A DNA stretch of 64,000 nucleotides from Planctomyces sp. (lineage in GTDB: Bacteria > Planctomycetota > Planctomycetia > Planctomycetales > Planctomycetaceae). A model generated the notes under the pieces. That model was not told the origin of the DNA and did not search any database. It worked only from the letters and a program-made list of their open reading frames with translations. The stretch's first letter is position 1; the number at the start of each line of letters is the position of its first letter. The DNA lies in assembly GCA_019636235.1 (NCBI GenBank), contig JAHBXW010000006.1, positions 124,001-188,000 of the forward strand, given 5' to 3'. The translations under genes and the position numbers were made by a program. Shown one piece after another: positions 3,630 through 54,486 of this stretch.

Positions 3630-5813
3630 ATGCCCCGCGTCCAGCTTCCCGATGGGAGCGTCAAGGAGTTTCCCGAGTCCGCGTCCGCGCTCGATGTCGC
3701 CCGTTCGATCGGCGAACGGCTGGCCGCCGCCACGCTCGCGGCGGACGTCAACGGCACGATCGTCGACGCCGCGCGGCCCCTGGCCGAGGCCTCGCCGTCC
3801 GATCCGCTGTCCCTCAAACTCCTCACCGAAAAGGACCCCCGCGCCCTGGGCGTCCTGCGGCACTCCTGCGCGCACATCATGGCCCGGGCCGTCATGCGGC
3901 TGTACGACGGAGTCAGCCTGGCCTTCGGCCCGACGACCGGCAACGGCTTCTATTACGACTTCGATCTGCCTCAGAAAATCAGCGAAGAGGACTTCCCGCG
4001 AATCGAGGCCGAGATGGCCGAGATCATCGCCGCGGCCGAACCGTTCGAGCGGTTCCATCTGCCCCGCGGCGAGGCCAGCCAGTTCTGCGGCGATCTCAAG
4101 CAGGACCTGAAGGTCGAACACATCGAAACCGGTCTGGCCGACCACGAGTCCCTGAGCTTCTACCGCCAGGGAGAGTTCGTCGACCTTTGCCGCGGCCCGC
4201 ACATCCCCGACGCCGGCCGCATCAAGGCCTTCAAACTGCTCAGCGTCGCCGGTTCGTACTGGAAGGGGGACGCGGACAACCGGCGGCTGCAGCGCCTGTA
4301 CGGCACCGCGTTCTTCAATCAGAAGGAACTCGATGCCCACCTGAACCAGATCGAAGAGGCCAAACGCCGGGACCATCGCGTGCTGGGCAAGCAGCACGGC
4401 CTGTTCACCATCAGCAACGACGTTGGCCAGGGGCTCTGCCTGTGGCTGCCCAAAGGCGCCACCGTGAGGATGCTGCTGGAGGACTTCATCAAGCAGGAGC
4501 TGCTGCGCCGCGGCTACCAGCCGGTGTTTTCGCCGCACGTGGGGCGCGTGGAACTCTACGAGACCAGCGGGCATTTTCCGTACTACCGGGATTCCCAGTT
4601 TCCGCCGTTGTTCGGGCATCCGGCCGGACAGCTCGTGGACTACTGGAAGCAGCGGTTGGAAGAAGGGCGGATTACCGAGAAGGCGGAACGCGGGTTCTTC
4701 GCCGCCGCCGGGGAACTCAACTGCGACTTCCACGATTACCCGTTCAACGGTCCGATCGAAGACCGGATCGCGTACCTCCGGAAATGGGAGCGGAACCAGG
4801 AGCGGTATCTGCTCAAACCCATGAACTGCCCGCACCACGTGCAGATCTATAAGGCGGCGCCGCGCAGCTACAAAGACCTGCCCGTCCGCCTGGCCGAATT
4901 CGGCGCCGTGTACCGGCATGAACAGTCCGGCGAACTCAATGGCATGCTCCGCGTCCGCGGGCTGACCCAGGACGACGCCCATTTGTTTGTCTCGCCCGAC
5001 CAGGTCGAAGAGGAGTTCCGCACCACGCTGGACCTCGTCAAGTTCGTCCTGTCCAGCGTCGGCCTCGAGGACTACCGGGTCCAGCTTTCGCGGCGCGATC
5101 CCGCGTCCGACAAGTACGTCGGCTCCCCGGAACTCTGGAATCAGGCGGAAGGCACCCTGCAGCGCGTGCTGGAAAACTCCGGCCTGGGGTTCACTTCGGC
5201 CGAGGGCGAAGCCGCGTTTTACGGGCCGAAGGCCGACTTCATGGTCCGCGACTGCCTGGGGCGCGAGTGGCAGCTCGGCACCGTTCAGCTCGACTACAAC
5301 CTGCCCGAGCGGTTCCAGCTCGAGTACATCGGCGCGGACAACGCGGCCCACCGGCCGGTGATGATCCATCGCGCGCCGTTCGGATCGATGGAACGGTTCT
5401 GCGGCATGCTGATCGAGCACTTCGCCGCGGCGTTTCCGTTGTGGCTGGCGCCGGAGCAGGTGCGGATTCTCGGGTTGAACGACAGCATGCTGCCGTATGC
5501 CCGGGAGGTGCAGGCGAAGCTGCAGTCAGCCGGCTTCCGAGTCACCGTGGATGCCCGCAGCGCCAACGTGAACAAGAAGATCCGGGATGCGCAGCTGGAA
5601 CTCGTGCCGTACATGCTGGTCGTGGGTCCGAAGGACCAGTCGGCCGGGGGCGTGAGCGTCAGGGATCGGATCGACGGCGATCTGGGCTTCATGTCGCTGG
5701 ACGCGGCCGTGGCGCGGCTCCGCAGCGAAGTGGAGAGCCGACAGATTCGCCAGGTGGTGAAGAGCGCGTTCGCACCGGCGGCGGAGACTGACGAGTTCGT
5801 CAACGAATACTGA
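3630..5813 (+). CDS. thrS: Threonine-tRNA ligase with an insertion in the catalytic domain
   Basis: Charges tRNA(Thr) with threonine in the cytoplasm. The domain order is standard: TGS (about 1-62), SAD editing domain (HSCAHIMAR from about 78 and CRGPHIPD), class II core and C-terminal anticodon-binding domain (about 600-727). The three zinc ligands of the family are present: Cys400 in MNCPHH, His451 in DDAHLF and His580 in [13 protein letters not shown]. At 727 residues it is about 85 longer than the E. coli enzyme. Most of the excess is one insertion of roughly 65 residues between [11 protein letters not shown] and [10 protein letters not shown] (about 325-395). The MNCPHH form and flanking text resemble Bacteroidetes-type ThrRS. 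Start chosen at ATG 3630 ([10 protein letters not shown]), where the TGS domain begins, rather than an in-frame TTG at 3612. Single gene. Confidence 0.97.
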
Positions 5814-5958
5814 CGGCCGGCTGCAGGGTCGCATCAACCGGGTCCGGGCGCGGGTCCGGGGCCTCATGGATTGAAATGGGCCCAGGCCGACGGCTCGGGC
5901 GCCGGGAATCAGGAACGGCAGCGTTCCAGGCGCGCGGCTCCCGTCGGCATGGCTGCCC

Positions 5959-7314
5959 TCAGCTCAACAGCTCTGCAATGGGCTGCGCCTCCGGATCAGC
6001 GAGCGGAATGGGGCGGCCGACGTTCGACATGTTCTGCAGCGAGGGATCGATGCCGACGGCCCGGGCCATCGTCGCAAACAGGTCGTGCACGCTGACCGGC
6101 CGGTCGGCGACCGTCATGCCGTCGTCGCTGGTCCGGCCGCACGACTGGCCGCCGCGGATCCCGCCGCCCGCCAGGACGCTGCTCCACGCGACCGGGAAGT
6201 GGTCCCGCCCCGTCTGTTCGTTGATCTTTGGCGTCCGCCCGAACTCGCCCATCCACACGACCAATGTCGAGTCCAGGAGTCCGCGCTGCTCGAGATCGCT
6301 GAGCAGCGTCGACCAGGCCGGGTCGAGCACGCCGCACAGCCCGCTGACCATGTTGAAGTTGTCAGCATGCGTGTCCCAGCCGATCCCGCCGTTCGTTTCC
6401 GTGCCATTCAGCGACACCTCGACGAACGACACGCCGCGCTCGATCAGCCGCCGCGCCAGCAGGCAGCCCTGCCCGAACGGGTTCCGGCCGTAGGCGTCCC
6501 GCAGCGCGTCCGCTTCCTCATCGAGATCGAACGCCTGCACGCCCGAGGAGCGCATCATCAGCACGGCCTTTTCATAAGCCGATTGCCGGCTCTCGCCGAC
6601 GATGCCCGGATGTTCGGCATGGAAGGACGTTTCCAGAACGCTCCGCAGACCGAGCCGCGCATCGGCCCGCGCGACGTCGATGCCGGCTGGCGATTCGATG
6701 TTCCGCACCCGCAGCGCCCCGGCGGCGTCGTTTCGCGCCGGCTGGATGGCGTTGTTGTCCCCCACGACCAGCGGAGCGTAGCGCGGCCCCAGAAAGCCGG
6801 GTCCGAACGCGCCCGGGCTGAGGAACCGGTTGGGCGCGATGCTCACAAATCCGGGGATCTCCGACCGGCTGTCGCCCAGTTCCTTGCTGAACAATGAGCC
6901 GAGCGTCGGGTAGCGGATGGGCCCCTGCGGCAGGTTGCCGGTCCGCACGAAGTAGGTCGCGCGGCTGTGGTCCCCTTCCTTGGTCGTCATTGAGCGGATG
7001 ACGGCCGCATGGTGCATCTGCTTCGCCAGGAGCGGCAGGTTCTCGGCGATCAGCACGCCGGGGGCCGAGGTTTCGATGGCCTGCGTCGGCCCGCCATTCT
7101 CATGGCCGGGTTTGGGATCAAACGTGTCGATCTGGCTGGGCCCGCCGCTCATCCACAGCAGGATGCAGGCGCGACGGCGTCCCGGCGCGGCGGCGACTTC
7201 GGCAGCGAACGACTTGAGAACCGTCGCCGTGTTCAGCGAGACGGCCGAGGCAGCGGCGATCCGCAGCCAGTCGCGGCGACTCAAACCCGACAGCAATGAC
7301 GCCTGTCCGGACAT
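5959..7314 (-). CDS. DUF1501 family exported protein
   Basis: A 451-residue protein of the DUF1501 family, an alkaline-phosphatase/sulfatase-fold group greatly expanded in planctomycetes and with no agreed substrate. It begins with a twin-arginine-like signal (SRRDWLRIAAASAVSL, from residue 12), so export by the Tat route is likely. Family motifs are visible: LWMSGGPSQIDTFDPKPG near the N-terminus, WDTHADNFN and LVVWMGEFGRTPKINEQTGR in the C-terminal half. In many planctomycete operons DUF1501 genes follow DUF1549/DUF1553 genes. Here no such partner is adjacent; the neighbours are thrS (convergent) and rpsT upstream on the same strand, 106 bases away. A second DUF1501 gene lies at 60907-62280. 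Confidence 0.88.
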   Translation of the reverse strand: MSGQASLLSGLSRRDWLRIAAASAVSLNTATVLKSFAAEVAAAPGRRRACILLWMSGGPSQIDTFDPKPGHENGGPTQAIETSAPGVLIAENLPLLAKQMHHAAVIRSMTTKEGDHSRATYFVRTGNLPQGPIRYPTLGSLFSKELGDSRSEIPGFVSIAPNRFLSPGAFGPGFLGPRYAPLVVGDNNAIQPARNDAAGALRVRNIESPAGIDVARADARLGLRSVLETSFHAEHPGIVGESRQSAYEKAVLMMRSSGVQAFDLDEEADALRDAYGRNPFGQGCLLARRLIERGVSFVEVSLNGTETNGGIGWDTHADNFNMVSGLCGVLDPAWSTLLSDLEQRGLLDSTLVVWMGEFGRTPKINEQTGRDHFPVAWSSVLAGGGIRGGQSCGRTSDDGMTVADRPVSVHDLFATMARAVGIDPSLQNMSNVGRPIPLADPEAQPIAELLS

Positions 7315-7420
7315 GGCAGAAGTCTCCCGTGGAACAACGTCCCCGGGGACTTTCTACGCGATTCCCGACGCCAGCGTTGGAAGCAGACGGGGGAACTCGT
7401 GAAAAGGCCGCGGAAACGTC

Positions 7421-7699
7421 TCAGCCCTGGGCCGGCTTCGCCGTCGACTTCGCGTGCAGCTTCGCCAGCCGCGACTTCGTCCGCGCCGCCGTATTCTTGT
7501 GAATCAAATGCTTCGCCGCCGCCTGATCGAGCTTCTTGGTGGCCTGGCGGAGCGCCTCGACGGCATCCTCCGCTCCCTCGGCCGCGGCGGACCGCGCCTT
7601 CTTCACGACCGTCCGAAGCGCCGACCGCTGCGAGCGATTCTGCAAACGCCGCTTGGTGTTCTGGCGGAGGGCCTTTTTTGCGCTGCTGGTGTTGGGCAT
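7421..7699 (-). CDS. rpsT: Small ribosomal subunit protein bS20
   Basis: A 92-residue basic helical protein of the 30S subunit. It starts [18 protein letters not shown], the typical S20 opening, and has the characteristic Lys/Arg/Ala-rich helices with [20 protein letters not shown] near the end. Start chosen at ATG 7699; an in-frame start at 7726 would add nine residues not seen in S20 proteins. The gene is divergent from metK. Upstream on this strand lie a TATACT -10 candidate (7792-7797) and a stem-loop in the presumed leader (7724-7752). Confidence 0.96.
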
Positions 7700-7723
7700 G
7701 AAAACTTCAACCTGACTCGATAT

Positions 7724-7752
7724 CACGCCGGTCGAAACCGGTTCCCGGCGTG
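7724..7752 (-). promoter_or_regulatory. Stem-loop in the presumed rpsT leader
   Basis: An 8-base inverted repeat (CACGCCGG / CCGGCGTG) with a 13-base loop that itself contains ACCGGT. It ends 24 bases before the rpsT start codon. S20 synthesis is known in E. coli to be controlled at translation by the protein itself; that this hairpin serves such control is inference. Confidence 0.35.
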
Positions 7753-8098
7753 AAGGCAGACAATCTGCTCACGGCGCCTGTCGGGCCAGGGAGTATAACC
7801 GCCATCCGGCGCGAACTCCAGACAGGAGAACGGGTTTTCCGCCCCGCGCTTGCGGGGCCCCGACACGGCCCGATGCCGTCCCGCTGACACCGCGGCGATC
7901 GCCCGCTGGTCGCGCGCCTCTCACCGGCGGTCCACGACCGTTTCCATCCGCCCCAACCTCCCTGTCCGCCCTTCGGCCGATTCCCGGCCGACACAATCTT
8001 TCGCAACGTCCGCCCCGCCCCTAAGATGCTGCCTGTCGGCGGGCCGCCACAGAGGTCCTCTGCAGGCTCAATCTCCATCCCCTCAAAGGTTTCGGCGG
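7753..8098. other. Divergent intergenic region rpsT/metK
   Basis: About 350 bases upstream of both rpsT and metK. Apart from the rpsT -10 candidate nothing else is recognised. I looked for an S-adenosylmethionine riboswitch ahead of metK and saw no convincing fold, and found no long open frame with protein-like composition. Confidence 0.5.
7792..7797 (-). promoter_or_regulatory. Candidate -10 box (TATACT) of the rpsT promoter
   Basis: On the minus strand the sequence reads TATACT, a good sigma-70 -10 match, about 93 bases upstream of the rpsT ATG, in a GC-rich region where such a hexamer stands out. No convincing -35 was found 16-18 bases upstream. Confidence 0.35.
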
Positions 8099-9283
8099 AT
8101 GTCGCGGTTTATCTTCACGAGTGAGTCGGTCAGCATGGGACACCCCGACAAGGTGTCCGATCAGGTTTCGGACGGCATTCTCGACGCCATTCTCGCACAG
8201 GACAGCACCGCCCGCGTCGCCTGCGAAACCCTCTGCACGACGGACTTCGTCTGCCTCGCCGGGGAGATCACCTCGCACGCCAAAGTCGACTACGCCGCCG
8301 TCGCCCGCAAGGTCATCCGGGAAATCGGGTACACCTCGCATGACATCGGCTTCAACGCCGACACCTGCGAAGTCCTGGTCAAACTGCACAGCCAGAGCCC
8401 CGACATCGCCCAGGGCGTCGACACCGGGGGCGCCGGCGACCAGGGACTGATGTTCGGCTTCGCCTGCAATCAGACCCCCGAACTGATGCCCCTGCCGATC
8501 TCCCTTTCGCACCGCATCCTCAACCGGCTCACCGAACTCCGGCAGCAGCAGGACGTCGACTGGCTGCGGCCCGACAGCAAAAGCCAGGTGTCGATCGAAT
8601 ACGACGGCGACCGCCCCGTCGGCATCACGGCCATCGTCGTCTCGACGCAGCACGCCCCGTCCGTCTCCCAGCAGGAAATTCGCGACTACGTCATCAATCG
8701 CGTTGTTCCTGACGCCGTCCCGGCCGAGCTGTTGTCCTCGAAGATCAAGTATCACATCAACCCCACGGGCAGCTTCGTCGTCGGCGGGCCGCATGGCGAC
8801 TGCGGCCTCACCGGCCGGAAGATCATTGTCGACACCTATGGCGGCTGGGGCCGGCACGGCGGGGGCGCCTTCAGCGGCAAGGACTCGACCAAAGTCGATC
8901 GTTCGGCCGCCTACATGGCCCGCTACGTCGCGAAGAACATCGTCGCGGCCGGCCTCGCCCAGACCTGCGAAATCCAGTTCGCGTACGCCATCGGCGTCGC
9001 GGAACCGGTCAGCATTCGCGTCGACACGCAGGGCACGGCGGAGGTCGATGAGTCCCGCCTTGCGTCCGCCGTTCGCGAAGTCTTCCCGCTGACGCCCAAA
9101 GGCATCATCGAACACCTGCAGCTGCGGCGGCCCGTGTTCCAGAAGACGGCATACGGCGGCCACTTCGGCCGGACCGACGCCGACTTCACCTGGGAGGCGA
9201 CCGACCGCACGTCCGAACTCCGCAAGTCGCTCGGACTCGATGCCCGCGTGCCGGAAGTCAAACTCACGCCCGTCGGCGTCTGA
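8099..9283 (+). CDS. metK: S-adenosylmethionine synthase
   Basis: Makes S-adenosylmethionine from methionine and ATP in the cytoplasm. The 394-residue protein is full length for the family. Signatures include GHPDKVSDQ (14-22, with the catalytic His and Asp), [16 protein letters not shown] (ATP site), [17 protein letters not shown], the glycine-rich [20 protein letters not shown], and HFGR near the C-terminus. ATG 8099 is chosen because [18 protein letters not shown] is the normal N-terminus; the frame is open upstream but the extension is not protein-like. A putative membrane protein gene follows 43 bases downstream, possibly co-transcribed. Confidence 0.97.
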
Positions 9284-9326
9284 GGACGCCCCAACGGGAC
9301 GAATCGCTCACCACGGAGGGATGGGC

Positions 9327-10163
9327 ATGTTCCATCGCATGAGGCTGAGCCCCGCGGAACGGGGAATCGCGGCGGCGGCGCTGCTTGGCGCTGCGGTGTT
9401 CGCCGCGGCCGTGCTCGTCGCCAGGCTCCCTGTCTCGGGCGCTTCGTCCACGGCGTCGGCCGCCTGGGTGCTGCTGACAGCCGCCCTCGTCGGCGGACTG
9501 GCGTTGTCCGGCACGCATCTGCTGCTGACCGCGCAGCCCGAACCGGCCGACGTCCGCGTGCGTCTGCTGGCGGCCCTCGCCGCCAGCGGCATCGCCGCCG
9601 TCGCCACGCTGACTGTGGCAGCTCAGGGCGCCCCGTGGGTGTTCGGCGGCGCGATACTCACCTCGCTGGGACTGATCGCCGGCAGCAGCGCGGCCGCGCT
9701 GCGGGGCGTTTCCCTGGCTGTCGTCGCCCGCCCCGCCGCGCTCGATGCGGGAACTCTGTCCGGCCGTCCAACCGCAGCCGCCTGGCCCGTCGCCCCGACC
9801 GGTCCCGCGGCGAACGCCGCGGCCGAGCCTCTCGCCGCCGACCTGCCCCCGGGAGTCGAACAGTCCTGGCAGCGCTCGCGCATTGATGGCCGCGACCTTC
9901 TCGAAGGCGTCGTCCGGATCACGTTCGAGGCCGGGGAATCGACAGCCATCGTCCATGTGCCGCTGCAGCCCGCCATGGCGCAGGTTCCGGACGTGGAGTG
10001 CGAACCGGTGGACGACGCCGAGATCCGCGTCGCGGCCGATCCCGTTCTCCCTTACGGCGTGCGTCTGACCTGCCGCCGATCCGGCGAGACGGCGCAGCCG
10101 CTGTCGACGGCCATCGCTGTCGCCATTTCGTGCCCCGCACACGAAGCCGCCCGAGCCGCCTGA
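9327..10163 (+). CDS. Predicted integral membrane protein, unknown function
   Basis: A 278-residue protein. The N-terminal 150 residues hold four hydrophobic segments (for example LLGAAVFAAAVLVARL, AAWVLLTAALVGGLALSG, LLAALAASGIAAVATLTVAA and FGGAILTSLGLIAGSSAAA). The C-terminal half is soluble, with a beta-rich stretch around SWQRSRIDGRDLLEGVVRI. I do not recognise a family. ATG 9327 is preceded by GGAGGG with six bases of spacing, a real Shine-Dalgarno match, which favours it over the in-frame ATG at 9321 that overlaps that motif. It follows metK closely on the same strand and may be read from its transcript. A long antisense frame here is rejected. Confidence 0.7.
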   Translation: MFHRMRLSPAERGIAAAALLGAAVFAAAVLVARLPVSGASSTASAAWVLLTAALVGGLALSGTHLLLTAQPEPADVRVRLLAALAASGIAAVATLTVAAQGAPWVFGGAILTSLGLIAGSSAAALRGVSLAVVARPAALDAGTLSGRPTAAAWPVAPTGPAANAAAEPLAADLPPGVEQSWQRSRIDGRDLLEGVVRITFEAGESTAIVHVPLQPAMAQVPDVECEPVDDAEIRVAADPVLPYGVRLTCRRSGETAQPLSTAIAVAISCPAHEAARAA

Positions 10164-47301: not shown

Positions 47302-47618
47302 GAGCTGACCGATTGGGCCGGCATTCGCCGGGCCGCAGGGGAGACGAGGAAACGGGGACGCATCCGGGAACGCGAAACGAGACGCGGAAAATGACGCGCG
47401 GGTTCGCATCCCGCGGCCGTCCGGCCGGTGGCAGGCGCGATTGTTTGCCGCCCGGGGCAGGGCGTCAAGGATTCGTCGACGACGGCCCGGCTCTCTGCAG
47501 GACGGCATCAATTGGCCGCCGGCTGCCGCGCCGCAGACAGCGCCGGCGCGCTGTCCGCCCGGTTCCCCGCTTGGTAACCTGCATTCCGCTGCTTCGGGTC
47601 AATCAGGGGGCCAGGGTG
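47302..47618. other. Divergent intergenic region without recognised features
   Basis: About 320 bases between the aminotransferase gene and the DUF1573-like lipoprotein gene. It should contain both promoters; no clear boxes, repeats or additional genes were seen. Confidence 0.45.
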
Positions 47619-48845
47619 ATGTCCACGTGCCCGTTTCTGCTGCGCGCAGGCGCCGCCATCCTGGTGTTCGCGTGCGGGGGATGTACCCGACCCACCGGGA
47701 CGGTCTCACTGGCGGACCCGGAGGTCGAGTCGCCGCCGCTTCTGGTCAGCGAACTGGCGGATGTCGGATCGCTGCCGGTGCGCATCGACCCGCCGCTGGT
47801 ATTCCGAAATCCGTCCGGCGAGGAGACTCGGTTGACGCTCACCGGGAAAGGCTGCTCGTGTTACGGCCTGACGACGGAAGCCGGCGAGTGGAAACCGGAG
47901 CAGGCGTTGAGCGTTCCGGGGGAAGGCCAGCGGCAGTTCGAGTTTCTGGCCCAGATTCCGCCGGCGCGGGCCGACCATCGCTTCCGGGCGGAGTTTCAGG
48001 CGGAGCAGAACGGCGTCGCGGTGACGCTGCAGGCGGCGGCCCGGCTAAGGATTTTTGACGACTTGGAAGTCGATCCAGGCGTGCTGACATTCGACGTGGC
48101 CAGGCCCCCGGAATCGAATGCCGAATCGGCGAGCGACGGCTGGATGCAGCGATTCGAGGTCCGGCGGACGACGCGGGGACGCCCCTTGGACGTCGAGCCC
48201 CCCGAATTCGACGGGCTGCCGCCCTGGGCGCTGGCGGGCGACTGGACCCCTCCGGGCGAACCCGAGCAGGCCGCCGAGGGACTGTGGCGGTTGCGCTGGG
48301 AGGGCATGATCCGCGTGCGAAATCCGCCGGAGGACGTATCGGACGGCGTGCGTCGCACGGTGCGGCTGACATTCCCGGCGGATGACGCGCCCCCGGTCGC
48401 GGCCGCTGCGTTGCCGATCGGCGAGCCATCCCCAAGGTCCGCGATGACGGACGCCGCGGCGCATGACGCGCGCCGGCTGACGGACCTGCTGACGAGTCGG
48501 CCCCCGCGAGAGGCGTCTCTGGAGCTGCGCATCGTGCGCCGGCAGGGGATCGTCGCGCCCGGCAGCGTGCACTTCGGAGTCCTGCGACCGGGGCAATCGC
48601 GGACGCGGCGGTTGGTGCTGACGGCGGTCGACGGCCTGGCGTTCCGGTTGTCGGCGACGGACCCGATCGAGGGCGTCCAGGTCGAGATGTCCGAGGCGGG
48701 GGCCGCGCCCCAGCACTGGGTCACGGTGACGCTGACGCCCTCGGAAGGCGCGCGGGGCGACATCCGCGAGACGCTGCTGCTGTCGACCGATCATCCGCAC
48801 CATCCGCGGGTCTCGATCACGCTGAGGGGCCTGGCGGCGGAATGA
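47619..48845 (+). CDS. DUF1573-like lipoprotein
   Basis: A 408-residue lipoprotein: signal peptide AAILVFACGGC with the lipid-attachment Cys22, then a beta-rich domain containing LTGKGCSCYG, the Cys-x-Cys motif I associate with DUF1573 domains that occur widely in Planctomycetes and Bacteroidetes. A later segment (TVTLTPSEGARGDIRETLLL then STDHPHHPRVSITLRG) has the alternating strand pattern of an immunoglobulin-like domain. Function unknown; an extracytoplasmic structural role is inferred. ATG 47619 matches the lipoprotein signal start. Convergent with the kinase gene, 64 bases away. Confidence 0.75.
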   Translation: MSTCPFLLRAGAAILVFACGGCTRPTGTVSLADPEVESPPLLVSELADVGSLPVRIDPPLVFRNPSGEETRLTLTGKGCSCYGLTTEAGEWKPEQALSVPGEGQRQFEFLAQIPPARADHRFRAEFQAEQNGVAVTLQAAARLRIFDDLEVDPGVLTFDVARPPESNAESASDGWMQRFEVRRTTRGRPLDVEPPEFDGLPPWALAGDWTPPGEPEQAAEGLWRLRWEGMIRVRNPPEDVSDGVRRTVRLTFPADDAPPVAAAALPIGEPSPRSAMTDAAAHDARRLTDLLTSRPPREASLELRIVRRQGIVAPGSVHFGVLRPGQSRTRRLVLTAVDGLAFRLSATDPIEGVQVEMSEAGAAPQHWVTVTLTPSEGARGDIRETLLLSTDHPHHPRVSITLRGLAAE

Positions 48846-48909: not shown

Positions 48910-51549
48910 TTACGGCTCGACCGCGCCGATGAAACCGCCGTCGATCCGCAGCGCATCGGTGTTCGGCTTGAGATACAGAGCCGACTTTGGATCAGTCGAC
49001 TGAAACCGGGCGAGGGTCGCTCCGCGGCGGCCGCGGGTTTCGAAGATGTCGATCTCGCCGGGAACCGGCTCATCCGGAACGAGCCGGTCCGACCAGTTGT
49101 CCGCCGCCGAGTTGCCGTTGGCTTCGAGGAACATGCGCCAACTTTCCGAGACGTCGCCGTCGATGCGGACCTCAGCGCCCTCCTGCAGCGCGAACAGGTT
49201 CCGCAGAATCTCGACCGGTCCGGAATCGCCCGCGGGCAGGCCGACGAACAGCACGCCTGTGTCGCAGCGATGAAATGTGTTCTGGCTGATTGTGACGCCG
49301 CGCACGTCCTGGTTCGTTTGGGCGAAGCGGATGCCAGCGCCGACCCGGTCGAGAATGCAGCGTTCGATGGACACGTTCCAGGCGGGGCCGCTGAACTCGA
49401 TGCCGGCCGCCAGCGGCCCGATCAGCCGGACGCCCTGGAAGTCGATTTCGCCCGTGCGGTCGGCGCCGGTGGCGGCGCAGCGAATCGCCACCGCCTCGGG
49501 CCGATTCTCCTGCACGGTGACGCGTTCAAACCGAACCTCCTGGTCGGGGAATCCGTCGAGGTTCTGTGCTTCGATGCCGGTTTTCAGAAAGCCCCGCACC
49601 GTGATGTCCTGCAGACGGGAACTCACCAGGAACCCGGACACCCGCAGGGCGACGTTGCCTCCCGCGGCGTCGAACACGACGTTCGAGATCACCAGGTCTT
49701 CAATGTCCGCCAGAATGGCGATCGGCTCTCCCGTGTGGGCCGGCTTCAGAATGGCGGGCGAGTCGGGATCGCCCAGGATCCGCAGGCCCCGCGGCGCCGC
49801 TCCCCGGCCCTTGCCGTTCAGCCGGATCGCCTCGGTCGACGTCGCGCCGGGCGCCAGCCGGATCACGCGGGCCTCCAGCGACCGCGCGGCGATCGCGTCC
49901 AGAGCTTCGGTGACTGTCGCGAAATGTCCGGTTGGGCCGACCGTGAGTTCGCGATCCGCCGCGCTGACGGCCGGACGCGCCGGAGGACGATTGCCCAGCA
50001 GGTTCAGCCCCAGCCAGCCGATCAACAGCGTGATGGCGACCGCGCCGGCGGCCTGCAGTTGTTGCCTTTGCTTCCGCGCGGGATCGACTCCGCCGGGATT
50101 CGACCGGGCCGCGCGGTGCAATCCGCTCGATGAGGAACGGCCAGCGCGGCCGGCAGCGGCCGGACGGGGCGTGACGGGATCGGTGGGGTGGGCGGCCGGA
50201 GCCGCGGTCGATTCCTGGAACGGACCATCCGACATATGCACGGTCGACGGGCTGGAGTCCGAATCGGAGATCTGCTCGAAGAACCGCTCGAGTTCGGAAG
50301 CCGGGGGCGCGTCGAGCCGGAAGGGGGTCGGCGATTCGAGGACCGTGTCGGTCTCATCCCCCCGGCGGGCGCGTTCAATCGCTTCGAAGTCCGGAATCTG
50401 GAACTCGTCGGAGTCCCCGGGGGGAGGCGCGGCGGGAGCGGACGACTCGGGCGTCGCGGCGCCCGAAACGGGCGCGGACGCGGGACGCGGCGCAGGTTCC
50501 TTCTGAGCGGCGAACCGCTTCAGGAAGGCGTCGAGCGCCTCGGCCACTTCCCCCGTCGACGCGTAGCGGTCCTCCGGCCGCTTGCGCATCATCTTCCGGA
50601 CGATCTCGATGAGTTCCTCCGGCACGTCGAGACGCTTCTCCGAAATCGAAGGCGGCTCGCGCGTCTGGTGAGCGATCAGCCGCTGGGCCAGCGTCCCGCT
50701 GTTGAACGGCGGATGCCCCATCAGCAGGTAATACAGCGTGCAGCCCAGGCTGTAGATGTCGGAGCGGGCATCGACGGAGTGGCTGTCGATCGCCTGCTCG
50801 GGCGAGCAGTAATTGGCGGTGCCCAGGACGCGCTCGTCCTGGTGGACGGTGAGCTGCTCTTCATTGGACTCGAAGAACCGCGCCAGCCCAAGGTCCATGA
50901 CCTTGATGACCCCCTGCCGGTCGAGGATCAGGTTCTCCGGCTTGACGTCCCGATGGATCAGCCCGGCGCGATGCGCGTGCTCGAGACCCAGCGAGGCCTG
51001 GCGGACATAGTCGGCCGCTTTGGCCACGGGCAGCGGGCCGCTCGAGCGGATCAGTTCGAACAGCGTCTTGCCCTGCACGTACTCCATGACGAGGAAGTGC
51101 AGTTCCAGCGCGCCGTCCTGCGACTGATCGATGTCGTACGCGCGAACAATGTTCGGGTGATCGAGCGCCGCCACCGCCCGGGCCTCGCGATGGAACCGCG
51201 TGATGTAACCGGGGTTCCGGGCCTTCTTGGCGGGCAGCACCTTCACTGCGCAGAACCGCTTCATGACGGTGTGCTGCGCGAGGTACACGCTGCTCATGCC
51301 CCCTTTGCCGAGCATGGAATGCAGCCGGTATCGGCCGAGATGGAAGCCGCGGTGCTTGCCCTGCAGCAGTTTTTCGGCCTGCCAGACGCTGAGCTGGCGG
51401 GTCCGGCAGAGATGTTCGGCGAAGTGCCGGGCTTCGTCCCCCTTGGGATGGCCGGCGCGCCACTGGCTGAGCGCCGCCTGAATCGCGGCGGGATCGAGCA
51501 GTTCGCTGCGTTCCAGGGTGGCGACAAACGTGTCGAGCGTCGTCCGCAT
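48910..51549 (-). CDS. Transmembrane Ser/Thr protein kinase with parallel beta-helix sensor domain
   Basis: An 879-residue eukaryotic-type kinase. Residues 1-70 form a planctomycete-style lead segment ending VWQAEKLLQGKHRGFHLGRY. The kinase domain spans about 72-345: glycine loop GKGGMSSVY (81-89), Lys103 in AVKVLP, catalytic HRDVKPEN (199-206), metal-binding DLG (219-221) and GTANYCSPEQ in the activation loop. A proline-rich linker follows, then a single membrane helix (about 498-518, VAITLLIGWLGLNLLGN), then about 350 extracytoplasmic residues of right-handed parallel beta-helix text (DLVISNVVFDAAGGNVALRV, SSRLQDITVRGFLKTGIEAQ, WNVSIERCILDRVGAGIRFA), a pectate-lyase/NosD-like fold that binds polysaccharide in other proteins. 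Ligand sensing is inference. Confidence 0.92.
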   Translation of the reverse strand: MRTTLDTFVATLERSELLDPAAIQAALSQWRAGHPKGDEARHFAEHLCRTRQLSVWQAEKLLQGKHRGFHLGRYRLHSMLGKGGMSSVYLAQHTVMKRFCAVKVLPAKKARNPGYITRFHREARAVAALDHPNIVRAYDIDQSQDGALELHFLVMEYVQGKTLFELIRSSGPLPVAKAADYVRQASLGLEHAHRAGLIHRDVKPENLILDRQGVIKVMDLGLARFFESNEEQLTVHQDERVLGTANYCSPEQAIDSHSVDARSDIYSLGCTLYYLLMGHPPFNSGTLAQRLIAHQTREPPSISEKRLDVPEELIEIVRKMMRKRPEDRYASTGEVAEALDAFLKRFAAQKEPAPRPASAPVSGAATPESSAPAAPPPGDSDEFQIPDFEAIERARRGDETDTVLESPTPFRLDAPPASELERFFEQISDSDSSPSTVHMSDGPFQESTAAPAAHPTDPVTPRPAAAGRAGRSSSSGLHRAARSNPGGVDPARKQRQQLQAAGAVAITLLIGWLGLNLLGNRPPARPAVSAADRELTVGPTGHFATVTEALDAIAARSLEARVIRLAPGATSTEAIRLNGKGRGAAPRGLRILGDPDSPAILKPAHTGEPIAILADIEDLVISNVVFDAAGGNVALRVSGFLVSSRLQDITVRGFLKTGIEAQNLDGFPDQEVRFERVTVQENRPEAVAIRCAATGADRTGEIDFQGVRLIGPLAAGIEFSGPAWNVSIERCILDRVGAGIRFAQTNQDVRGVTISQNTFHRCDTGVLFVGLPAGDSGPVEILRNLFALQEGAEVRIDGDVSESWRMFLEANGNSAADNWSDRLVPDEPVPGEIDIFETRGRRGATLARFQSTDPKSALYLKPNTDALRIDGGFIGAVEP

Positions 51550-52335: not shown

Positions 52336-54486
52336 ATGTCACTCCAGTTCATTCGCAACATCGGCATCTCCGCTCACATCGACTCGGGCAAAACGACCCT
52401 CAGCGAGCGGATCCTGTTCTACTCGGGCCGCATTCACAGGATGAATGAGGTCAAGGGAGACGGCGACGGCGCGACCATGGACTTCATGGACCTGGAGCGC
52501 GAGCGCGGCATCACCATCACCTCCGCCGCCACGCAGGTCCGCTGGACCGAACGCGAAGGCCGCGGCGACTTCACGATCAATCTGATCGACACCCCCGGAC
52601 ACGTGGACTTCACCGTCGAGGTGGAGCGCAGCCTCCGCGTCCTCGACGGAGCCATCCTGGTGCTGTGCGCCGTCGGCGGCGTCCAGAGCCAGTCGCTGAC
52701 CGTCGACCGCCAGATGAAGCGCTACGGCGTGCCGCGGATCGCGTTCATCAACAAGATGGACCGCACCGGCGCCGATTCCGCCAAAGTCATTCGGCAGGTC
52801 AAGGACAAGCTGGGCGTCACCCCGCTGCCGATTCAGTTGCCGATGGGCTCGGGCGCGCAGTTCGAGGGCATCATCGACCTGATCACCATGCAGGCCCTGT
52901 ACTTCGAGGGCAAGCAGGGCGAGGACGTCCGCCGCGAGCCGATTCCGGCCGACTATCAGGACGCCGCCCAGGCCGCGCGCAACGAAATGCTCGAAACGTT
53001 GTCGATGTTCGACGACAACCTGATGACGCTGTTGCTCGAAGAGGCCGACATCCCCGTCGACGAGATCCACCGCCTGATCCGCGAGACCACGCTGGCCCGC
53101 GAACTGACGCCCGTCATGCTCGGCACGGCCTTCAAGAACAAGGGCGTCCAGGAGCTGATCGACGCCGTCTGCCGGTATCTGCCGAGCCCGCTCGACCGCA
53201 CGGTGAGAGCGACGGACGTCGTCGCCACCCGCAAGGCCAAGGAGGCCGGCGAGACGGGAGACGACGCGGTCAAGAAGGTCACGCTGACCACCAACGGCAG
53301 CGATCCGCTGGTGGCGATGGCGTTCAAGACGGTCGTCGAGCCCTTCGGCCAGCTGACGTACACCCGCATCTACCAGGGCAAGATCAAGAAGGGCGAGAGC
53401 TACATCAACTCCCGCACGGACAAGAAGGTCCGCTTCGGCCGGCTGCTGCGGATGCATGCGGACGACCGCGAGGACATCGATGAGGCGGGCCCCGGCGACA
53501 TTGTGGCCGTGGTCGGCGTGGACTGCGCGTCCGGCGACACCTTCTGCGGCGGCGATGTGACGTACGCGCTGGAAAGCATTTTCGTTCCCGAGCCCGTGAT
53601 CCGGCTGTCCATCGCCCCGCTGGCCCGCGACGGCGGCGACAAGCTGGGCAAAGCCCTGGAGCGCTTCCGTCGCGAGGACCCCACGTTCCGCGTGATGAGC
53701 GATCCCGAAACCAACGAGACGATCATCGCCGGCATGGGGCAGTTGCACCTCGAGATCTACATCGAGCGCATCAAGCGCGAATACAAGTGCGACACGATCG
53801 TCGGCGAGCCGAAGGTGGCCTACCGCGAAACGCCCACGAAGCAGGTCGAGTTCAACTTCAAGCACAAGAAACAGACCGGCGGCTCGGGGCAGTACGCCCA
53901 CATTGTCGGCGTGCTCCTGCCGCTGGGCGAGGACGCCACCGAGCAGTTCCTGTTCGAGAACGAGATCAGCCAGGGGCGCATTCCCAAGGAATACATCCCG
54001 GGCGTCGAGTACGGCATGGGCCGGGCGCTGGAGAAAGGCCCGCTCTGCGAGTGCGAAGTCACCGGCGTCAACGTCAAGCTGCAGGACGGCAGCTATCACG
54101 ACGTCGACTCGTCGCTGATGGCCTTCGAAGTGGCCGGGTTCAACTGCATGCGGGAATCCCTGCAGAAGTCGAACATGGCCCTGCTCGAGCCCATCATGAA
54201 GCTCGAAGTCGAAACGCCCGATGAGTACACCGGCTCGCTGACGGGGCACCTGTCCAGCAAGCGCGGCGTCATCACCGGCACCGACACCCGCCAGAACGTG
54301 ACCGTCATCAACGCCGAAGTGCCGCTGGCCAGCATGTTCGACTACGCCAACGAGCTGCGCTCGCTGACGCAGGGCAAAGCCAGCTTCAGCATGGAGTTCT
54401 CGCGGTACAAGCAGGTCCCGCGGAGCATCCAGGAGGAAGTCATCGAACGCCGGATGCGCGAGAAGAAGGAACGGCAGGCCAGCTGA
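52336..54486 (+). CDS. fusA: Elongation factor G, spirochaete/planctomycete-mitochondrial type
   Basis: A 716-residue translocation GTPase. The G1 motif is AHIDSGKTT (13-21), with Ser where most bacterial EF-Gs have Ala; DTPGH and NKMD motifs follow. Domains II-V are complete, with switch-related GRIPKEYIPGVEYGM near domain IV. The AHIDSGKTT form is known from EF-Gs of spirochaetes, planctomycetes, some deltaproteobacteria and mitochondria (the spdEFG1/mtEFG1 group), so this is likely the translocase of that pair; a second EF-G would be expected elsewhere. It has a long leader of its own, separate from any rpsL-rpsG operon. The formyltransferase-like gene follows 50 bases downstream. Confidence 0.96.
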   Translation: MSLQFIRNIGISAHIDSGKTTLSERILFYSGRIHRMNEVKGDGDGATMDFMDLERERGITITSAATQVRWTEREGRGDFTINLIDTPGHVDFTVEVERSLRVLDGAILVLCAVGGVQSQSLTVDRQMKRYGVPRIAFINKMDRTGADSAKVIRQVKDKLGVTPLPIQLPMGSGAQFEGIIDLITMQALYFEGKQGEDVRREPIPADYQDAAQAARNEMLETLSMFDDNLMTLLLEEADIPVDEIHRLIRETTLARELTPVMLGTAFKNKGVQELIDAVCRYLPSPLDRTVRATDVVATRKAKEAGETGDDAVKKVTLTTNGSDPLVAMAFKTVVEPFGQLTYTRIYQGKIKKGESYINSRTDKKVRFGRLLRMHADDREDIDEAGPGDIVAVVGVDCASGDTFCGGDVTYALESIFVPEPVIRLSIAPLARDGGDKLGKALERFRREDPTFRVMSDPETNETIIAGMGQLHLEIYIERIKREYKCDTIVGEPKVAYRETPTKQVEFNFKHKKQTGGSGQYAHIVGVLLPLGEDATEQFLFENEISQGRIPKEYIPGVEYGMGRALEKGPLCECEVTGVNVKLQDGSYHDVDSSLMAFEVAGFNCMRESLQKSNMALLEPIMKLEVETPDEYTGSLTGHLSSKRGVITGTDTRQNVTVINAEVPLASMFDYANELRSLTQGKASFSMEFSRYKQVPRSIQEEVIERRMREKKERQAS

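Follow-up and report, generated by a model that had tools for sequence, protein, structure and literature searches.

A membrane-anchored planctomycetal Ser/Thr kinase with a predicted β-helix ectodomain, a candidate glycan receptor

Gene layout, kinase half and membrane topology

The stretch of DNA analysed here (the window; 64,000 nucleotides of a Planctomyces sp. genome, contig JAHBXW010000006.1, positions 124,001 to 188,000) carries on its reverse strand a complete open reading frame with its ATG at 51549 and its stop at 48910. Chance or a wrong frame was ruled out as its source, since relatives conserve the frame over its whole length. A full-length model built on 38 sequences resolves a helical bundle (residues 5–62), a kinase (approximately 69–349), a linker (351–493), a helix (494–515) and a β-helix (534 to the end), although the whole-protein pTM is only 0.49 and the mutual placement of these parts carries no meaning. 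A Ser/Thr kinase, a single membrane helix and a β-helix are thus joined in one protein, as a reading from the sequence alone had proposed. The features are:

48910..51549, reverse strand: complete open reading frame, 879 aa plus stop
51364..51537, reverse strand: N-terminal helical bundle, residues 5–62, conserved in the subfamily, with invariant L17 and W56
50560..51330, reverse strand: Ser/Thr protein kinase domain, residues 74–330, with K103, D201 and D219; T234 and T244 invariant (38 rows)
50071..50499, reverse strand: disordered Pro-rich linker, residues 351–493 in the full-length model, putatively cytoplasmic; kinase-to-membrane distance 113–696 aa (38 rows)
50005..50070, reverse strand: single membrane helix, residues 494–515, from the model and a hydrophobic segment
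48913..49950, reverse strand: predicted right-handed parallel β-helix ectodomain, residues 534–879, from an AF2 model and structural matches
52336..54486, forward strand: elongation factor G (EF-G), divergent neighbour outside the system; shows synteny with a genome of the same genus (G087)

The kinase domain matches PF00069 over residues 74–330 (E 1.1e-52; 179.4 bits against a cut-off of 31.7) and retains the catalytic Lys (K103), the Asp of the HRD motif (D201) and the metal-binding Asp (D219, in DLG), and so is complete as predicted. For comparison we fetched 40 loci, hand-chosen to spread over genera, all of which carry the β-helix. An intact kinase shares its frame in 37 of them, and the three catalytic residues are present in 38 of 41 rows when the window is included. 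The three rows lacking them, omitted from alignment A2, are interrupted by an in-frame TGA (L088), run into a contig end (L104) or belong to a kinase-less paralogue (L110). In the first case (genome G409), the single TGA at 9471..9473 on the reverse strand cuts the kinase domain of the orthologue and parts it from the β-helix, through either sequencing error or decay. Two threonines in the activation-loop region, T234 and T244, are invariant in all 38 full-length rows, an invariance from which this Hanks-type kinase half looks active.

The window protein has one hydrophobic segment, at residues 500–518, which coincides with the modelled helix and bears out the expectation of a single membrane helix. 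All 41 rows have one or more hydrophobic segments strong enough for a membrane helix, and some of them also have Ala/Pro-rich linker segments. Between kinase and membrane helix lie 113–696 aa (median 226) in the 38 full-length rows. A protein that crosses the membrane once and has its kinase in the cytoplasm would have its C-terminus outside. The balance of Lys and Arg around the helix points the same way at family level, being greater on the N-terminal side in 25 of 40 rows, equal in seven and smaller in eight, although the window protein itself is among the ties (3:3).

Fold and conservation of the β-helix

Structure prediction of the C-terminal part, suggested earlier as a check, confirmed the expected fold at the level of the model. 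The C-terminal 366 aa, modelled alone (AF2, 41 sequences), are predicted to form a right-handed, pectin-lyase-like β-helix with a pLDDT of 93.7 and a pTM of 0.92. The top Foldseek match of this model is the pectate lyase Pel9A (E 1.3e-4). In VIA-align the best match is the glycoside hydrolase BT_1002 (5mqp; Z 26.9, rmsd 3.0 over 290 residues), followed by a rhamnogalacturonan lyase of family PL9 (5olq; Z 26.4, rmsd 3.3 over 312 residues) and Pel9A (Z 26.0, rmsd 3.3 over 310 residues), with alginate lyase, polygalacturonases, phage tailspikes and the adhesin PfbA further down. The statement that β-helices often bind polysaccharide agrees with these neighbours, most of which act on or bind polysaccharides.

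At the sequence level the relationship is distant. The only Pfam match of the window C-terminus searched alone is to Beta_helix (PF13229), at 20.0 bits and under the cut-off of 25.9; this family matches 36 of 41 members of the family alignment at E <= 0.01. NosD (PF05048) matches nine of the 41 at the same threshold, the window not among them, and the label 'NosD type' given to this protein is consequently wrong. A search of the PDB with the single window sequence gave no match; the family profile finds pectinesterase 5c1e (E 2.4e-6) and PfbA 3zpp (E 1.7e-6).

Conservation within the β-helix resides chiefly in Gly, Asn, Pro and hydrophobic positions, as maintenance of the fold alone would give. 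The best-kept charged or Asn positions among 40 relatives are N818 (39/40), E573 (37/40) and N784 (37/40), and W819 (30/40) is the only column of aromatic Trp or Tyr to reach 60%. E573 falls within an N-terminal motif common to pectinesterases, whereas N784, N818 and W819 sit closer to the C-terminus. Not one Asp, Lys or His is invariant among these relatives. Pectinesterases (CE8) use a catalytic Asp in a QD motif. In a distant profile alignment, the catalytic Asp of 5c1e falls on a consensus Lys of the family and its second Asp lies in an insert that is absent here; by this alignment the family lacks the catalytic Asp of the QD motif. Polysaccharide lyase family 9 relies on a catalytic Lys and a set of calcium-binding Asp residues; the comparison with PL9 is at the level of the fold only (Z 26.0–26.4), and neither Lys nor Asp is invariant in our family. 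The lack of invariant Asp, Lys and His suggests that the β-helix is probably non-catalytic, and favours binding over catalysis. The two halves differ in divergence: identity to the window across the 38 full-length rows is 55–66% in the kinase (median 60%) and 24–35% in the β-helix (median 29%).

Distribution, loss and recurrence

Of 392 genomes sampled across the phylum, 23 match the β-helix part, and 22 of these 23 belong to the family of the window, the Planctomycetaceae. Within the family it is found in 123 of 170 genomes (101 of the 130 of good quality), spread over 51 of 58 genera and nearly always in a single copy, so that a one-genome curiosity was ruled out. A profile at E <= 1e-12, with at most 11 candidates scored per genome, gives 126 of 170 genomes and 53 of 58 genera, a second kind of β-helix kinase included. 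The genome of the window has 46 kinase match places, only one of which bears this C-terminus among the candidates scored (at most four per genome). Outside the family, generic β-helix proteins reach a best E of 2.1e-10 among the same number of candidates per genome, and three such proteins (L227, L229, L230) have no kinase match in frame. A collection scan for named relatives, dominated by the general kinase motif, returned one full-length relative, from uncultured Schlesneria, whose kinase falls inside the clade of the family.

One orthologue has lost the ectodomain. In G087, a gene beside EF-G (L120, 8428..10053, reverse strand) groups with the window kinase (support 100/97) and keeps kinase, linker and membrane helix, stopping shortly after the latter with no β-helix. 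A decayed β-helix beside it was ruled out, as no remnant was found in the fetched 18 kb by tblastn (best E 2.0) or with the family profile (best E 0.25). The nearest outside kinase (from Thermogutta) and a Gemmata relative likewise end at the membrane helix. The tree suggests that the β-helix may have been added to an older form, in which the kinase had only a membrane tail, though an early gain with later losses is left open by a β-helix kinase outside the main clade (L124). That locus has two related kinases in tandem (4953..6899 and 7112..9628, forward strand), one with the β-helix and the other with a different short ectodomain.

Related β-helices also occur on other kinases. We checked 20 frames with weaker profile matches (17 newly fetched, plus L233–L235), 19 of which combine a kinase with a β-helix. 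Eighteen of the 19 have an intervening hydrophobic segment scoring at least 1.65 (0.92 in L253), and the twentieth frame (L259) is a copy of the window's type at the end of a contig. In the kinase tree, the kinases of the weaker-match frames are placed away from the lineage of the window, most of them in a single region and L253 in a separate one, and the first tree required at least five changes of the β-helix label. A single origin of the β-helix kinases was rejected by an AU test holding 35 β-helix rows together (p-AU 5.3e-81), with the caveat that the group was named only after the first tree had been seen and that gains and losses are not separable in every case. The tree for this test kept 17 rows of the first lineage and left out the long-branch rows L014b, L028, L029 and L030 as well as L259 and L248. 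Since these kinases lie elsewhere in the tree and one clade is rejected, related β-helices serve as ectodomains of several kinase lineages. The comparison of β-helix kinases within the phylum that had been called for thus returned both a family-wide type and related β-helices on other lineages. Together with the loss in G087 and the outside kinases that end at the membrane helix, this points to a removable and recurrent ectodomain.

A close paralogue of the β-helix stands behind a membrane helix with no kinase at two loci (L110, 7658..10909, genome G315, and L236, 6552..9767, genome G274, both on the reverse strand); the former carries a HlyD-like region (PF13437, E 9.8e-8) in place of the kinase.

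The genomic surroundings offer no partner. No carbohydrate enzyme is among the seven Pfam-scanned neighbours in the window, and of the seven neighbours taken as queries EF-G was the only one to turn up next to a kinase, and this only in G087. Seven clusters of common flanking genes, each Pfam-scanned by one member and each present in 6 to 13 of 43 compared loci, share no theme, and a conserved operon partner was thereby ruled out (further clusters of at most six loci were left out). The genes common to subsets of loci are ordinary, namely an RlmI-like methyltransferase, a DUF2064 protein, a glutaredoxin-like protein and a response regulator; one cluster (12 loci, represented by L080 6962..7702) has no Pfam match. 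The receiver-domain cluster occurs in nine of 43 loci, its member at L082 (12160..12732, forward strand) lying near the kinase on the opposite strand. In the window, the convergent neighbour (47313..48845, forward strand) has by eye a lipoprotein-like signal sequence inside its frame and no Pfam match over the cut-off.

Proposed function and comparison with known systems

From the sequence and its domains, the modelled fold, the pattern of conservation, the presence of related β-helices on other kinases and the loss in one relative, we infer, with a probability of about 0.5, a single-pass membrane receptor kinase. In this proposal the cytoplasmic N-terminal half would be a Hanks-type Ser/Thr kinase that looks active and is attached to a flexible linker, and the outer half a non-catalytic β-helix descended from a carbohydrate-enzyme fold. 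At the surface or in the periplasm, the latter would bind an extended ligand, for which an envelope or matrix glycan is the likeliest candidate, and binding would cluster or dimerise the protein and promote autophosphorylation in trans; any step downstream of clustering would be equally conditional. A linker that is disordered and varies so widely in length would suit clustering better than rigid transfer of a signal. Against a receptor stand a conservation of the β-helix for which upkeep of the fold would suffice, the persistence of the nearest outside kinase and the same-genus orthologue without any β-helix, and the lack of a conserved flanking gene pointing to glycans.

Given the modelled fold, a glycan is the natural first guess for the ligand, and carbohydrate sensing, as put forward from the sequence with planctomycetes that digest complex sugars in mind, is plausible on the same ground. 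A nearly always single-copy protein is unlike a diet-tuned set of sensors, however, and a relative of the same genus does without the β-helix. Given its single-copy retention across the family and the lack of carbohydrate genes among seven neighbours, a cue from the cell's own envelope is no less likely than dietary sugar. A constitutive envelope cue, for instance the matrix or a polymer of the wall, fits no less well than carbohydrate sensing. A tentative alternative casts the protein as an envelope housekeeping kinase, whose β-helix would recognise the cell's own wall, lipopolysaccharide, a matrix polymer or a protein partner rather than food polysaccharide; the two explanations overlap if what the receptor binds is an envelope glycan. 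The near-universal presence in single copy within the family and the ordinary flanking genes agree with this alternative, whereas the low identity of the β-helix relative to the kinase could mean that ligands vary between genera.

Alternatively, the β-helix may act as a spacer or in the manner of an adhesin, anchoring the kinase but passing no signal. The same-genus genome that lost it while retaining kinase and membrane helix, the Thermogutta and Gemmata relatives that stop at the membrane helix and the long disordered linker would all suit such a passive role, but we consider it unlikely given retention of the β-helix in 51 of 58 genera and its recruitment by other kinases. That the β-helix is a polysaccharide lyase or hydrolase and the protein a bifunctional enzyme, as the top structural matches (BT_1002, the PL9 lyase, Pel9A, polygalacturonases) might suggest, is highly improbable in view of the absence of any invariant Asp, Lys or His in 40 relatives and the Lys that replaces the pectinesterase Asp in the family consensus.

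Returning to the receptor reading, we tentatively postulate a planctomycetal class of receptor kinases in which a carbohydrate-enzyme β-helix, devoid of catalysis and reading a ligand, has been grafted independently onto several kinase lineages, the lineage of the window being a near-core receptor for a glycan of the cell's own envelope or matrix. It would then show clearly how an enzyme fold has been redeployed, several times over, for reception of signals. Each planctomycete genome encodes dozens of Ser/Thr kinases (here 46 match places) whose signals are largely unknown, and a kinase present in single copy across the family, with an ectodomain predicted at high confidence and a natural relative that lacks it, provides a clean start for a ligand search.

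Ser/Thr kinases that span the membrane and carry a WD40, TPR, sulfatase-modifying or DUF1080 domain in the periplasm are already known from planctomycetes (PMC11032199), and our protein shares with them the phylum, the general plan and a single membrane helix with a periplasmic accessory domain. It differs from them in its β-helix, the words helix, pectin and NosD being absent from the main text of that article, and we found no description of a β-helix Ser/Thr kinase in the open-access PubMed Central literature. With pectin-lyase-like proteins it has the predicted fold in common (Z 23–27 for PL9, GH28-type, AlgE and PfbA entries) and, for pectinesterase 5c1e and PfbA 3zpp, distant sequence similarity; unlike them, its β-helix is tethered through a membrane helix to a kinase and has no conserved catalytic constellation that we could see. 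In the PknB plan, a cytoplasmic kinase is followed by a linker, one membrane helix and an extracytoplasmic C-terminal ectodomain. The window protein resembles the PASTA kinases PknB and PrkC in each of these elements, and its best NCBIfam match is PknB_PASTA_kin (NF033483, residues 72–355). It departs from them in scoring 320.4 bits, short of the equivalog cut-off of 450, in having no PASTA family among its Pfam matches up to E 0.1, and in presenting a predicted β-helix as its ectodomain.
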